NCBI GenBank assembly: GCA_028276475.1
Contig: JAPYWH010000003.1
Span: 22,304 to 86,303 of the forward strand
Source of the DNA: Thermocrinis sp.
GTDB lineage: Bacteria > Aquificota > Aquificia > Aquificales > Aquificaceae
DNA length: 64,000 bases
Reading direction: 5' to 3'
The position numbers and the translations under genes were made by a program. The notes beneath the pieces are model-generated. The model was not told the origin of the DNA, searched no databases, and was given only the letters and a program-made list of their open reading frames with translations. This document shows, one piece after another, positions 56,211-62,497 of this stretch (its first letter is position 1; the number at the start of each line of letters is the position of its first letter).

Positions 56211-57151
56211 AAGTCCTTCTGTGGCAAACTGCCTACTTGGGGGATGTGGTCCTTGCCACATCCCTTCTTAGAATTCTAACAAAAAGGTTTCAAAAGGTCG
56301 GCTTTGTGGGCAGACCCTTCATAAAGGAGCTGTTAAAGGGATACGATGTGGAGCTTATCCCATTCAACAAAGGATTTTTAGAGTCCTTCAGGATAAAAAA
56401 GACTATAAGATCATACGATGCAGTCCTTTCTGCCCACAGGTCTATGCGAACAGCCCTCATTCTTTACTTCTCTGGCATACCCTTAAGGGTAGGTTTTGAT
56501 AAATCTGAGCTTGCCTTTTTGTACACTCACACAGTTCCCCACCGGTGGGGCATGCATGAGGTAGAAAGAAACGCACAGCTTTTGAAACCTTTGGGTATTG
56601 TTCCAGAACCGGAAGAACTCTATCCGAAACTTTTTGTGGAAGAGGAAGAGGTTAAAAGCGTAATAGAAAAATTCCAACTTCCTGAGGAGTACGTAGTATT
56701 ATCGCCCTTTTCTAATTTTTCACTAAAGGAGTGGCATATAGACAATTGGTTAGAATTAGCTAAGGCTATAGGAAAAAAAGTAGTAGTGGTAGGCACGGGA
56801 AAGGATATGGAAAGGGCAAGGGTTTTTGATGCATACGCCATAAACTTGGTGGGTAAAACTTCTTTGAGGGAGCTTATGGCGGTTATTTCAAGGGCAAAGC
56901 TTGTGATCTCCTGCGATTCCTCCCCGGTGCATATAGCCAATGCTTTAGATGTGCCAGCTATAACCATTTATACCTCCACTTCCCCCATCTACGGCTTTTA
57001 TCCCCTAAAGGGTACGTACCTTACTCCAGAGCTTGCCTGTTCTCCTTGTTCGCCCAACCCAAAAAAGTGCAAGACAGGAACCTATGACTGCGTAAGGGCA
57101 GTAAGCGTGAAAAAGGTCCTTTCCCTCTGCCAAACCTTTATTACCGACTGA
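56207..57151 (+). CDS. ADP-heptose:LPS heptosyltransferase family
   Basis: LLWQTAYLGDVVLATSLLRIL; KEWHIDNWLELAKAI; DSSPVHIANALDVPAITIYTSTSPIYGFYP; ACSPCSPNPKKCKTGTYDCVRAVSVKKV. Confidence 0.92.
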   Translation: MKVLLWQTAYLGDVVLATSLLRILTKRFQKVGFVGRPFIKELLKGYDVELIPFNKGFLESFRIKKTIRSYDAVLSAHRSMRTALILYFSGIPLRVGFDKSELAFLYTHTVPHRWGMHEVERNAQLLKPLGIVPEPEELYPKLFVEEEEVKSVIEKFQLPEEYVVLSPFSNFSLKEWHIDNWLELAKAIGKKVVVVGTGKDMERARVFDAYAINLVGKTSLRELMAVISRAKLVISCDSSPVHIANALDVPAITIYTSTSPIYGFYPLKGTYLTPELACSPCSPNPKKCKTGTYDCVRAVSVKKVLSLCQTFITD

Positions 57152-58191
57152 ACTAAACCTATCATTATCAAAGATGCAAAAAGGTTTGAAGTTCCGTAGC
57201 TAACAAAGGGCAGGGCTATACCCTTAGGTGGCAAAAGGTTGGATGCCATAGCCAAATTCCACAGAAAGGCAAGGGAAAAGTTCATGGCTGTCCCAAAGAG
57301 CAGGAGCTTTCCAAAGGGTTCATTCACCTTAACAGAATAGTAAAACAGCCTGCCCACCAGCAAGGCATAGAGCAAAACCACCATCATCACACCCAAAAAG
57401 CCCATCTCTTCTCCGATGATGGAAATAACATAGTCTGTGTCTGCCTCAGGAAGTGCACCCATTTTTTGAATGCCTTTACCTATGCCCACCCCAAAGGGAC
57501 CACCCTTAGCAAGGGCGTAAAGGGACTGTATGATTTGATAGCCAGTATCCTCCGCGTCCGCAAAAGGGTCAATCCACGCAGATAACCTTTCGGATACATA
57601 ACCCTTCTTTAGCAAAAAGAAGCTAAAAAAGCCTACGAGGGCAATGGCAGGTAAATAAAGCTTGTAGGGTATCCCACCCACATACATAAGGCTGAAAGAA
57701 AGAAGGAGTATAAACAAAGCACCACCTTTGTCCGGCTGTGAAACTAAAAGAATGGCGTGTAAAAGGACTATAAAAAAAGCCCAAGAAAAGGTCTTTATGC
57801 TTCTCAAAGAGCCCTTGCTAACTATGTAATAGGACAGAAAAATAATTATTGCTATCTTTGCAAACTCCAAAGGTTGCACACTGCCACCAAAAAGCCACCG
57901 ATCCACTGCCTTGCCGGAGATCAGTTTTTTTACAAGAACAGTGAATAGGGAAACCAAAGAAACGCCCACCAAAAGATATACATACTCTCCTTTAAACAAC
58001 CTTTTGTAATCAATTTTAGCAATGTAAAAGGAAAACAAAAGTCCCGCAAAAAAGACCATAAACTGTAAGACCGGTCTTTTTAGTGTTTGAACATCAAACT
58101 CCGAAGCGGAAAGCACGTTGGCGCTTATTATGGCGGTCTCCCCCATCAAAAAAAGCAAAACAACCGAGTAAAAGATCCATCTATCGGGCAT
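57082..58191 (-). CDS. FtsW/RodA/SpoVE family protein
   Basis: SLMYVGGIPYKLYLPAIALVGF; GYQIIQSLYALAKGGPFGVGIGKGIQKMGALPEADTDYVISIIGEEMGFLG; PKGIALPFVSYGTSN. Confidence 0.92.
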   Translation of the reverse strand: MPDRWIFYSVVLLFLMGETAIISANVLSASEFDVQTLKRPVLQFMVFFAGLLFSFYIAKIDYKRLFKGEYVYLLVGVSLVSLFTVLVKKLISGKAVDRWLFGGSVQPLEFAKIAIIIFLSYYIVSKGSLRSIKTFSWAFFIVLLHAILLVSQPDKGGALFILLLSFSLMYVGGIPYKLYLPAIALVGFFSFFLLKKGYVSERLSAWIDPFADAEDTGYQIIQSLYALAKGGPFGVGIGKGIQKMGALPEADTDYVISIIGEEMGFLGVMMVVLLYALLVGRLFYYSVKVNEPFGKLLLFGTAMNFSLAFLWNLAMASNLLPPKGIALPFVSYGTSNLFASLIMIGLVQSVIKVWQRERTFFTLTALTQS

Positions 58192-59254
58192 CGCTTAGTA
58201 TTTTATATAGGTTTGAAAGGTAGCATTCTTTGACCTGCTTTGCAAAATCTTGCAGGTTAAAGTCTGGATAAGCAAGCCTTCCCTCTAAAATCTTCTTTGC
58301 TACCACCACCGCTTCCTGAGGACTTGCCACATTAAAACCTAAATTCTTTGAAAGGATAAACTCTTCCAGATCCTTCACCTTGTGGGTGTAAGGACCAAAC
58401 AGGACAAACTTTCTGTAATAGGCAGGTTCCAAAAGATTGTGCCCTCCCACACCATTGGCAAAGGTGCCACCCACCAAGGCTAAGTCTCCAAGGGCATAAA
58501 GATAAAAAAGCTCACCCAAGCTATCTACCACAATAACCTGACAGTCTTCCCTGTTTTCGCTCTTTAAACAAGGTTTGAACTCCTTAAGCCCTTTCATAAA
58601 TACATCCACCTTTGATAAATGCCTTGGCACCACCACCAGATTGACTTGACCCATCTCCTCTAAAAGCCTTCTGTAAAACTCCTTCAAAAAGGGAAGCTCC
58701 TGCGGATGGAAGCTACCCGCCACTACTGTCTTTCCCTCCCGCAGTGTTAGGGAGACCCTTGTCTCTTCCCTTTCTAAGACCACCTTTAAATTACCGCAGG
58801 CTATTGCATTAACCCCATAGCCCTCAAAGATTTTTCTGTCTTTTTCCGTCCTGCATAGGATCAGGTCAAACTGCCTTGCAAGTGTCCTTTCCCAAAAACT
58901 ACCCTTTGCGTAGGCGTTGAGCAAAACCTTCTTTGCCTTTACCCCTTTTAACAAGAAATACCAAAGCTCCCTTTCCATGATCAAAAGGGCGTATGGATTT
59001 GCCTGTTTTTCAAAGAGTTTCACAGAAAGGGGATTGTCCAAAGGTAGCGGGTGCAGGGCGTCGTAAAAACCTTCTTGAGTTTTCAGAAATTTCCTTGCCC
59101 TGGGAGAAAAGTAGGTGAGAACTATAAAAAAGTCCCTTTTTAGCGGTCTCAAGATGGGTTTGGCGGTGTTGAACTCACCCACGCTGGCACAGTGAAACCA
59201 AAGGACGGGTTTTGTGGTGTTGAACTTTAGCCTTGGAAATATTCTTTTAAGCAT
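58181..59254 (-). CDS. waaA: 3-deoxy-D-manno-octulosonic acid transferase (KdtA/WaaA)
   Basis: PVLWFHCASVGEFNTAKPIL; FVLTYFSPRARKF-like; HPLPLDNPLSVKLF; LLNAYAKGSFWERTL; GGTFANGVGGHNLLEPAYYRKFVLFGPYTHKVKDLEEF. ATG 59254; the longer ORF runs through tRNA-Pro. Confidence 0.92.
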   Translation of the reverse strand: MLKRIFPRLKFNTTKPVLWFHCASVGEFNTAKPILRPLKRDFFIVLTYFSPRARKFLKTQEGFYDALHPLPLDNPLSVKLFEKQANPYALLIMERELWYFLLKGVKAKKVLLNAYAKGSFWERTLARQFDLILCRTEKDRKIFEGYGVNAIACGNLKVVLEREETRVSLTLREGKTVVAGSFHPQELPFLKEFYRRLLEEMGQVNLVVVPRHLSKVDVFMKGLKEFKPCLKSENREDCQVIVVDSLGELFYLYALGDLALVGGTFANGVGGHNLLEPAYYRKFVLFGPYTHKVKDLEEFILSKNLGFNVASPQEAVVVAKKILEGRLAYPDFNLQDFAKQVKECYLSNLYKILSDAR

Positions 59255-60599
59255 CGGGGCGAGGGGACTTGAACCCCCGACCTTCGGCTCCCGAAGCCGA
59301 CGCGCCACCACCTGCGCCACGCCCCGTCATGAAACCCAAAATCTTTTCACGCCATTCTTGTGCCAAAAATTTTACCTTTTCTTGGTCTATGGTCTTTAGC
59401 TCTCTTTTTTCCATAAGAATTTTTCCCTTGCATACCACCGTGTCAATATCCTCCGCATTGGCACTGTACACCCACTGGGAGATGGGCTCATAAAGAGGTT
59501 GCCAGTGTGGTGCATCCGCATTAACCAGTATAAAGTCTGCGTCGTAGCCTTCTTTTAGCCTTCCCCCTTTTATGCCAACCGCACGAAAGCCGTTTTCAGT
59601 GGCGATCATCAGAGCGGTCTGTGCATTCATCGCCTTTGCATTAAGGCTTGCACCCTTTTGCAGTTTAGCCATCAAGGACATTTCCTCGTGCATGTTGAGG
59701 TTATCGTTGGAAGCGGCACCGTCGGTGCCAAGGCACACATGAATGCCCCTCTTAACATAATCCCAAATAGGTGCTATACCCGACGCAAGTTTTAGGTTGC
59801 TCTCTGGACAGTGTAGCACTTTAACTTCCCTTTCTTTGAGTATTTCCCTCTCCTCTTCTGTGGTCCATACCACATGGGCACAGAGCCATCTTTGGTCCAA
59901 AATGCCCAACTTTTCCAAGTGCATAACGGGTGTGTTTCCGTAAGCCTCTTTTATCCTCTCCACCTCCTCTTGAGTTTCCGCCAAGTGGGTGTGAATATAA
60001 ACATCCTCCTCCCTTGCGGTTTCATAAACTTTCCTCAGTGTGGAAGTTCCGCAGGTGTAGGGTGCGTGAGGGCAAAGAACGGGGAAGACAAGTTCTTCTC
60101 CCTTGAAAGCCTTCACAAACTCCTTTGCCCTTTTTATGTATTCCTCTGGCGTTTTTGCCACTTTGGTGGGAAAGTCAAGGATGCCAAAGCCAAGACCAAC
60201 TCTCACTCCCACCTCTTTTGCCACCTCCCCCACCACCTCTTCAAAAAAATACATGTCCATAAATAGGGTTGTTCCGCTTCTTATGCCCTCCGCCAGGGCT
60301 ATAAGGGTGCCGTCTTTAACAAACTCCGGAGAGACAAACTCCCCCTCCAACTTCCATATAACCTTCTGTAGCCAATCCATGAGGGGCAGGTCCGCACCGA
60401 GCCCCCTCAAAAGGGTCATGGGTAGATGGGTGTGCATGTTTGCAAAGGATGGGAAAAGTAGCTTTCCCCCTGCCCTTAGGACCTCTTTAGCGGGCTTTTC
60501 CTCCTCCCCAAGGTAGGCGATCTTACCATCCTTTATGCCCACGTTCAACTTTTTTCCAAGGGAGACTACAAAGGCGTCCTCTACAAGAAGGTCAAACAT
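59247..60599 (-). CDS. Amidohydrolase (MTA/SAH deaminase / cytosine deaminase-like)
   Basis: LLFPSFANMHTHLPMTLLRGLGADLPLMDWL; YIHTHLAETQEEVERI; GTDGAASNDNLNMHEEMSLMAKL. The reading frame continues through tRNA-Pro before stopping. Confidence 0.9.
   Translation of the reverse strand: MFDLLVEDAFVVSLGKKLNVGIKDGKIAYLGEEEKPAKEVLRAGGKLLFPSFANMHTHLPMTLLRGLGADLPLMDWLQKVIWKLEGEFVSPEFVKDGTLIALAEGIRSGTTLFMDMYFFEEVVGEVAKEVGVRVGLGFGILDFPTKVAKTPEEYIKRAKEFVKAFKGEELVFPVLCPHAPYTCGTSTLRKVYETAREEDVYIHTHLAETQEEVERIKEAYGNTPVMHLEKLGILDQRWLCAHVVWTTEEEREILKEREVKVLHCPESNLKLASGIAPIWDYVKRGIHVCLGTDGAASNDNLNMHEEMSLMAKLQKGASLNAKAMNAQTALMIATENGFRAVGIKGGRLKEGYDADFILVNADAPHWQPLYEPISQWVYSANAEDIDTVVCKGKILMEKRELKTIDQEKVKFLAQEWREKILGFMTGRGAGGGASASGAEGRGFKSPRPDA
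59254..59326 (-). tRNA. tRNA-Pro (anticodon CGG)
   Basis: CGGGGCG...CGCCCCG acceptor; anticodon arm TCGGC-TTCGGGA-GCCGA; GGGGGTTCAAGTCCCCT T arm. Confidence 0.94.
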
Positions 60600-60604
60600 A
60601 ACTC

Positions 60605-61576
60605 TTAGTATATCACCCCCGCACGGAGTATATCGTGCATGTGGACTATGCCAATGGGTCTTTTCTCCTCATCCACCACAATGAGGACGGTTATCTTGCG
60701 GTCCTCCATTCTCCTTAGGGCTTCCGCTGCCAACTCTTCCATCCTGGCAGTTTTGGGATTTGTGGTCATGGCATCCTTAGCCAAGCTGTTGTTTAGGTCC
60801 CCACCCCGGTTTATGAACCTTCTAAGGTCCCCGTCGGTGATTATACCCACAAGCCTTCCCTCCTCATTTACCACTGCTACAGCCCCAAAGCCCTTGCTGG
60901 TGATCTCTACAACCACCTCTTTCATTGAACCTGTTTCTTTAACAATGGGCACCTCTTCCCCCGTATGGCAGAGTTCTTTAACTAGCTTTAGCTTTCTACC
61001 CAATGCACCCGCAGGATGTCTGAGGGCAAAGTCCTTCTCTGTAAAACCCCTGAGTTCTAAAAGCACCATAGCCAAAGCGTCCCCCAAAACCAGGGCGGAC
61101 GTGGTTGAAGTGGTTGGCGCTAAGTTCAGGGGGCAGGCTTCCTTGGAAACCCCCAAAAATATATGCACATCCGAGTGCTTTGCTAAGGTGGAGTTTGGGT
61201 TGTTGGTAACGGATATGAGCTTGGTGCCCAAGAGCTTTATGTATGGAAGAAGTGCCAAAACCTCCGCAGATTCTCCACTGTTGGAGAAGGCTAAAACCAC
61301 ATCTTTACTTTCCACCACTCCCAAATCTCCATGAAGGGCTTCTGAGGGATGAAGATAGTGGGAGGGAGTGCCCGTGGAAGATAGGGTTGATGCGACCTTT
61401 TGGGCTATGTGTCCCGACTTTCCAACGCCCGTGGTTATAACCTTTCCCTCACAGTTCAGGATAAGCTCAACCGCCCTGACAAAGGAATGGTCTAACCGTT
61501 CCGAAAGTTTTGAGAGCTCTTGCGCCTCCTCCTCTATTACCCTTTTAGCCTTACGGATGATCTCCTCAGAGTTCAT
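60605..61576 (-). CDS. kdsD: D-arabinose-5-phosphate isomerase (KpsF/GutQ; SIS plus CBS domains)
   Basis: [60 protein letters not shown]; two CBS domains. Confidence 0.94.
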
Positions 61577-62103
61577 TCACCCTTTTTGTAGTTCTCTATA
61601 CCCTCTTTGATCTCCTCTATGGCGAACTGCACACCTTTGAACCCTTCCACCTTTACCCACTTGCCCGGTTCCAGCTCCTTGTAGTGTTCAAAAAAGTGCT
61701 TGATCCGGTCCAGCAGTGCCTTGGGTAAATCATCCACGCTCTTTATCTCGTCAAAGGTTGGGTCTATCTTTGAGTGGGGCACCGCTATAAGCTTTGTATC
61801 CACACCCTCTTCATCCCTCATCTCCAAGCCACCTATAGGTCTGCACCTTATCACACTGCCGGGTGCCACGGGATACCTTGATACCACCAAAACATCCACC
61901 GGGTCCCCATCGTCCGCCAGGGTCTGAGGAATAAAGCCGTAGTTGAAAGGATAATGCATGGCTGTAAATAAAAACCTATCCACAAAGACCGCACCCGTCT
62001 CCTTGTCCAGTTCATACTTTATGGGGCTGTCTTGGGGGATCTCCACAACCACATAAATGTCCTCTGGTGGGTTTTTACCGGCGGGTATTTTCTTTATTTC
62101 CAT
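61573..62103 (-). CDS. ppa: Inorganic pyrophosphatase
   Basis: [61 protein letters not shown]. Confidence 0.97.
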
Positions 62104-62166
62104 CTTTCCTCCTCCGAGAGCAATATTATACCCTAACGCAGAATTGTGATATAATTTTTAATCTGA

Positions 62167-62239
62167 GCTGGCGTAGCTCAGCAGGCAGAGCGCGGGATTT
62201 GTAATCCCGCGGGCGTGGGTTCAAGTCCCACCGCCAGCT
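62167..62239 (+). tRNA. tRNA-Thr (anticodon TGT)
   Basis: GCTGGCG...CGCCAGC; CGGGA-TTTGTAA-TCCCG. Confidence 0.95.
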
Positions 62240-62248
62240 TCAGGCTCA

Positions 62249-62332
62249 GGAGGGGTGGCCGAGCGGCCAAAGGCAGGGGACTGTAAATCCCCCGGGCTCC
62301 GCCCTGCGCAGGTTCGAATCCTGCCCCCTCCA
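62249..62332 (+). tRNA. tRNA-Tyr (anticodon GTA)
   Basis: GGAGGGG...CCCCTCC; loop CTGTAAA; long variable arm. Confidence 0.94.
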
Positions 62333-62337
62333 CTTTA

Positions 62338-62409
62338 GCGGGCGTAGCTCAGTGGTAGAGCAGCTGCCTTCCAAGCAGCAGGCCGCGGGTTCGAGTCCCG
62401 TCGCCCGCT
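62338..62409 (+). tRNA. tRNA-Gly (anticodon TCC)
   Basis: GCGGGCG...CGCCCGC; GCTGC-CTTCCAA-GCAGC. Confidence 0.95.
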
Positions 62410-62422
62410 TTTGCAAACAAAG

Positions 62423-62497
62423 AGCCCAGGTAGCTCAGCAGGCAGAGCACACCCTTGGTAAGGGTGAGGTCGCCGGTTCAAGTCCGGTCCTGGGCTT
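62423..62497 (+). tRNA. tRNA-Thr (anticodon GGT)
   Basis: AGCCCAG...CTGGGCT; CACCC-TTGGTAA-GGGTG. Confidence 0.94.

Follow-up and report, generated by a model that had tools for sequence, protein, structure and literature searches.

The nearest precedent for the locus described here comes from Alphaproteobacteria, where the tRNA-Sec gene (selC) is nested in selB, an arrangement that was termed the first of its kind in bacteria (Mukai 2021, PMC8124441). It was proposed that processing leaves a nonstop mRNA and, downstream of it, a leaderless one, so that the products are alternatives to each other (PMC8124441). For nested tRNAs in other bacteria we searched papers with open licences, and the selB/selC report was the only one found. 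In mitochondria of Armadillidium vulgare, a tRNA-Lys is nested in cox1 (Doublet 2015, as cited in PMC8124441). The accessible sections of a paper on Aquificales ncRNAs do not report the tRNA/CDS overlaps that are the subject of this study.

A tRNA-Pro gene within the 3' end of an amidohydrolase gene

The window is the whole stretch of 64,000 nt of a Thermocrinis genome (G000) that was analysed. On its minus strand, an ORF of 450 aa (59247–60599) shows a profile match to Amidohydro_1 (E 8.8e-77). The closest NCBIfam models are TRZ/ATZ hydrolases and MTA/SAH deaminases, every one of them under its cut-off, and we refer to the gene as a TRZ/ATZ, S-methylthioadenosine/SAH-deaminase-like amidohydrolase. 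ARAGORN and Rfam both place a tRNA-Pro(CGG) at 59254–59326 on the same strand. It comprises 73 nt without an encoded CCA, ends in the discriminator A73 at 59254 and displays a full cloverleaf with a CGG anticodon; its score of 61.2 bits (E 8.8e-12) against the Rfam tRNA model is above the Rfam threshold. As the original prediction had stated, the entire tRNA is nested in the 3' coding end of the amidohydrolase: all 73 nt are open in frame, with 424 codons upstream of the tRNA and 26 reading through it. The protein ends in ...EKILGF-MTGRGAGGGASASGAEGRGFKSPRPDA-stop, in which M is the final pre-tRNA codon and TGRGAGG... is encoded by the tRNA. The stop codon (TAA, 59249–59247, minus strand) does lie beyond the tRNA 3' end and finishes 7 nt past it.

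The next gene, waaA (kdtA, lipid IV(A) Kdo transferase; 58181–59254, minus strand, 357 aa, PF04413), also begins where it had been predicted to, with an ATG at 59254–59252 whose A is the discriminator base of the tRNA. The amidohydrolase stop and the waaA start overlap by 8 nt (ATGCTTAA, 59247–59254, minus strand). Each of the two genes is present in a single copy in G000. The waaA product matches PDB 2xci (E 1.4e-88), and its N-terminal LKRIFPRL aligns with LKRFFPKE of this solved homologue; in other genera, WaaA either has a short N-terminus or starts at an ATG that lies some residues ahead of the LKR.FP stretch. Among the first 27 codons, the only ATG, GTG or TTG besides the start is a GTG at codon 25, which falls within the conserved FHCASVGEF motif. 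A waaA start downstream of 59254, which the original prediction had named as a possible objection, is ruled out: there is no usable codon ahead of this motif, and three other genomes of the genus use the same ATG. Another candidate waaA start, a GTG at 59320 within the tRNA, is preceded in its frame by a TGA immediately ahead of the tRNA; it is less likely, as the peptide that it would add is nothing but translated tRNA and has no equivalent in the WaaA of relatives. No Shine-Dalgarno sequence was found upstream of waaA, where the sequence is tRNA only. The rodA/ftsW-type gene that follows (57082–58191, minus strand, overlapping the waaA end by 11 nt) is likewise devoid of an obvious one. The overlap and the missing Shine-Dalgarno sequence suggest that waaA would be translationally coupled to the amidohydrolase.

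An open frame across a tRNA is not rare in itself. In G000, 49% of the tRNA-frame combinations are open across the entire tRNA; the run-through of the amidohydrolase is therefore unsurprising once the upstream stop had been lost. What goes beyond chance, judging from the sequences compared, is the retention of the arrangement across species and its recurrence at other tRNAs.

Conservation, origin and further overlaps

Three other genomes of the genus (G001, G002 and G003, the last a single contig) carry the same open frame, the tRNA-Pro(CGG) and a waaA ATG that always begins on A73. The comparison with relatives thus confirmed the arrangement, and a sequencing error hiding a stop codon upstream of 59326, or an assembly artefact, is ruled out by the agreement of the four genomes. 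Relative to G000, the tRNA is identical in G001 and G003 and 96% identical in G002. The amidohydrolase stop in the relatives is TAA, TGA or TAG, at the corresponding position or one codon further on (7–10 nt past the tRNA), and the overlap with waaA is 8 nt in three genomes and 11 nt in G002. Within the genus, the pre-tRNA part of the amidohydrolase displays a dN of 0.016–0.13 against a dS of 0.20–2.8. Between G000 and G002, the amidohydrolase dS is 2.8, the waaA dS is saturated and dN/dS is low; given these synonymous distances, we consider the arrangement to be old. In G005, the amidohydrolase-tRNA part is present up to the contig end, consistent with the same arrangement. G006 is fragmentary, and in G004 the amidohydrolase, the tRNA and waaA lie apart.

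Outside the genus, close homologues of the tRNA with a CGG anticodon occur in many other Aquificaceae genomes. Four of the g11 genus have an amidohydrolase whose stop is immediately adjacent to this tRNA-Pro, and their waaA is located elsewhere. In the incomplete genome G010, the amidohydrolase ends 1 nt ahead of this tRNA, and no waaA was found. Since these two other Aquificaceae genera stop 0–1 nt before the tRNA without an adjacent waaA, the most plausible reading of the Thermocrinis state is that waaA arrived later at the tRNA and that the old amidohydrolase stop was lost. In the ancestor, this stop would have been next to the tRNA-Pro. In either order, waaA would have become attached to the 3' end of the tRNA, where A73 supplied the missing base of a new ATG, and the amidohydrolase stop would have shifted from before the tRNA to just past the new waaA start.

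Other tRNAs of G000 are also embedded in coding sequence. A tRNA-Gln(TTG) lies wholly inside ispE (contig C45, 12968–13040, L115), whose stop is found 18 nt past the tRNA and is followed by a gene that we take, by inspection, to be prs. All seven genomes of the genus (7/7) display this run-through. In 18 Aquificaceae genomes from seven other genera, the ispE stop is formed by U8A9G10 of the tRNA-Gln, and the spacer between ispE and the tRNA differs by whole codons. This pattern suggests that the frame from ispE into the tRNA is kept; a 1-nt deletion relative to the other genera accounts for the Thermocrinis run-through frame. A tRNA-Leu(TAA) is likewise fully enclosed in the 3' end of a class-IV aminotransferase gene (pabC-like; contig C67, 66547–66631, L136), a nesting that is present in G000, G001 and G003; in G000 the aminotransferase TGA overlaps the dcd ATG. 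The tRNA-Gln(TTG) and the tRNA-Leu(TAA) are the only genes found with those anticodons in the G000 assembly. In addition, a gene that we take to be pnp, again by inspection, ends at a UAG inside tRNA-Thr(CGT) (contig C56, 12151–12222, L112), as is the case in three genera (also L232 and L303).

We scanned the tRNA neighbourhoods of seven genomes (G000, G007, G029, G011, G015, G048 and G051). Run-through was found only in G000, at 3 of 39 tRNAs, and at none of the 130 tRNAs of G007, G029 and G011, the 43 of G015, which has HARP only, or the 74 of G048 and G051. Stops inside tRNAs, a few of which may belong to spurious ORFs, were seen in G007, G029 and G011 and in the RNase P RNA genomes G048 and G051; G015 had none. 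The scan thus revealed no enrichment that would support HARP or the ligase (see below) as the cause of nesting.

An HU/IHF-like gene has a stop that abuts tRNA-Pro(GGG) in G000 (contig C16, 10829–10901, L135). Several genera show similar spacing, and the stop of G051 falls inside that tRNA. At L352 (G011, contig C1, 1271524–1271617), the first base of a tRNA-Sec is the last base of the upstream ORF stop codon. The window also contains a tRNA-Thr/Tyr/Gly/Thr cluster (62166–62497) directly upstream of tuf, whose frame stays open when traced back through the final tRNAs of the cluster; this is the ordinary tRNA-tuf arrangement. An ORF running past tRNA-Val at L116 was discarded as spurious, because a -10-like box belongs to that tRNA itself and no recognisable protein is encoded in the frame.

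Transcription, processing and competing explanations

The amidohydrolase and waaA are part of a minus-strand run that begins with an inorganic pyrophosphatase-like gene (ppa, named by inspection; 61573–62103) and continues with a SIS-CBS protein gene of the KpsF/KdsD type (60605–61576), the amidohydrolase, waaA and rodA; the successive gaps are -4, +5, -8 and -11 nt. A perfect TATAAT box is located 9–17 nt upstream of 22 of the 39 G000 tRNAs. At tRNA-Pro(CGG) there is no -10 box, the best hexamer being no better than 72% of random spans. The TATAAT box is also absent at tRNA-Gln and tRNA-Thr(CGT), tRNA-Leu(TAA) is preceded by TAAAAT, and the remaining box-less tRNAs are mostly later members of tandem clusters. 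The tight operon gaps and the missing box make it likely that amidohydrolase, tRNA and waaA are co-transcribed, and the tRNA-Pro(CGG) is probably derived from operon RNA. A weak TTGACA-16-AAAAAT site is found about 93 nt upstream of the tRNA. Promoter-like sites are no commoner than in shuffles (6 vs 5.1), and the bases of this site code for a conserved protein motif. A short transcript of the tRNA alone is therefore unlikely, and no candidate for a promoter of its own exceeded chance. Even given such a transcript, any longer mRNA would still contain the tRNA. The region folds with an ordinary energy (z 0.38). Of the proline codons, CCG is the rarest in the window ORFs (4.5 per 1000 codons, against 9.7–17.6 for the others), and low output of tRNA-Pro(CGG) would therefore suffice; G000 also contains tRNA-Pro(TGG) and tRNA-Pro(GGG).

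As for processing enzymes, the protein-only RNase P HARP (PF08745) was detected in 24 of the 25 Aquificaceae genomes tested, including G000. None of these 25 contained an RNase P RNA (RF00010), which is present in eight other genomes of the order. The RNA ligase Rnl3 (PF18330) occurs in 32 of 37 Aquificaceae genomes, again including G000. Unlike most of the family, genus g10 (G015, G022, G028 and G034) has no detectable Rnl3; HARP is present in the two g10 genomes tested, G015 and G022. HARP and Rnl3 are known to co-occur widely, and their link in bacteria is unexplained (PMC12153264). tmRNA was found in G002, G003, G004 and G006 and not in the assemblies of G000, G001 and G005, where its absence is probably a gap; Lechner et al. 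report tmRNA in the Aquificales studied there (PMC4227106).

The operon RNA probably serves two purposes, with the pool of transcripts being split between translation and tRNA excision. ppa, the SIS/CBS gene, the amidohydrolase, tRNA-Pro(CGG), waaA and rodA would be transcribed as one RNA. On uncut copies, ribosomes would translate the amidohydrolase through the tRNA, terminate at the TAA directly behind it and begin again at the waaA ATG that overlaps this stop, a restart that we infer because waaA has no Shine-Dalgarno sequence of its own. On other copies, the tRNA would fold first and be cut out, its 5' end generated by HARP and its 3' end by a 3' tRNase. These copies would give rise to tRNA-Pro and to two mRNA fragments: an amidohydrolase part without a stop, to be discarded or rescued by tmRNA, and a downstream part lacking the waaA start. 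The locus would thus divide its transcripts between a low-demand tRNA and two enzymes. The original prediction that the same transcript cannot give the tRNA plus intact mRNAs holds for each RNA molecule: the tRNA, a stop-bearing amidohydrolase message and a start-bearing waaA message cannot all come from one. It does not extend to the locus, whose transcripts can be divided, and the arrangement persists in the genus. Nor is the conflict peculiar to the tRNA-Pro locus, since ispE and tRNA-Gln display the same across the family.

It is possible, if rather unlikely, that we are looking at tolerated drift in a compact genome, in which tRNA-adjacent stops are lost by mutation, half of the frames run through and the resulting overlaps are merely harmless. 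Most of the tRNA would then stem from a short transcript whose internal promoter has gone unrecognised. The high proportion of open tRNA frames in G000 fits this explanation, as do the stops within or just before tRNAs in the RNase P RNA genomes (G048, G051) and the single-nucleotide deletion behind the ispE run-through. However, the waaA start codon exists only on uncut RNA, the tRNA has no -10 box, and three different stop codons have been kept just past the waaA ATG. Drift covers the origin of the arrangement, but not the expression of waaA; it differs from a split transcript pool mainly in promoter and purpose.

There would be no conflict at all if the tRNA-Pro(CGG) were a dead or rarely used copy and its sequence served only as the amidohydrolase tail. 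tRNA-Pro(TGG), which is present in G000, could read CCG by wobble. This explanation is nonetheless very improbable in view of the full cloverleaf, the score of 61 bits, the CGG-anticodon homologues throughout many other Aquificaceae genomes and the 96–100% conservation of the tRNA in four species while synonymous sites saturate.

Finally, HARP and a 3' tRNase could remove the tRNA and Rnl3 could seal the flanks, giving tRNA and mRNA from one molecule. The A at position -1 would replace A73, regenerating the waaA ATG and joining amidohydrolase and WaaA in frame (...TTTCATGA joined to TGCTTAAAAG without the tRNA). Cut ends of this kind carry a 3'-OH and a 5'-phosphate, both enzymes are present in G000 and most of the family, and position -1 is A, with TG after A73, in all four species. 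However, position -1 is A at most G000 tRNAs, which makes the regenerated ATG weak evidence, and the product would be an amidohydrolase-WaaA fusion. G007, G011 and G029 have both enzymes and no run-through tRNA, the only three cases in the scan being those of G000. Genomes with RNP RNase P, too, have stops inside tRNAs, which means no enrichment. We know of no case of such tRNA excision with mRNA rejoining. Ligase-mediated rejoining is chemically possible, but the distribution of nested tRNAs does not support it and we regard it as scarcely credible; if true, it would explain why HARP and Rnl3 co-occur in bacteria.

Comparison with known systems

A CDS overlapping a tRNA is usually rejected by annotation pipelines, and tRNAs nested in coding sequence may therefore be a largely hidden class. 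The genes involved here are housekeeping genes, and the overlap of ispE with tRNA-Gln is kept across a bacterial family. Such loci offer natural genes in which to test how ribosomes and tRNA-processing enzymes compete for a single RNA and what becomes of the stop-less messages. They also provide natural substrates for studies of how the protein-only RNase P and its companion ligase act together.

Among described arrangements, coupled overlapping genes of the ATGA type resemble the Thermocrinis locus in that the upstream stop overlaps the next start without a Shine-Dalgarno sequence, but in Thermocrinis the coding path crosses a tRNA immediately ahead of the overlap. In mitochondrial tRNA punctuation, too, tRNAs in a polycistronic RNA set the mRNA ends. 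There, excision frees usable mRNAs, whereas in Thermocrinis it would destroy a stop and a start codon. The tRNA-Lys in cox1, as far as the cited account describes it, is likewise a complete tRNA in a coding region in direct orientation, with a similar either-or outcome hypothesised, but it belongs to an organelle with other processing machinery.

As in selB/selC, a whole same-strand tRNA occupies the 3' end of a CDS, the stop of this CDS shares bases with the next start codon, and the proposed either-or outcome is alike. The architecture is shared and the family is not, as here a tRNA-Pro(CGG) lies in an amidohydrolase gene rather than a tRNA-Sec in selB. selB/selC pairs a specialised tRNA with its own elongation factor and has a proposed role in homeostasis, whereas the Thermocrinis cases concern sense-codon tRNAs (Pro, Gln and Leu) in unrelated metabolic genes, three of them in a single genome, in the presence of a protein-only RNase P. 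Furthermore, the last base of the tRNA itself belongs to the downstream start codon. The selB/selC kind of arrangement is thus extended to sense-codon tRNAs, to unrelated genes, to several cases per genome and to a tRNA base that forms part of a start codon.
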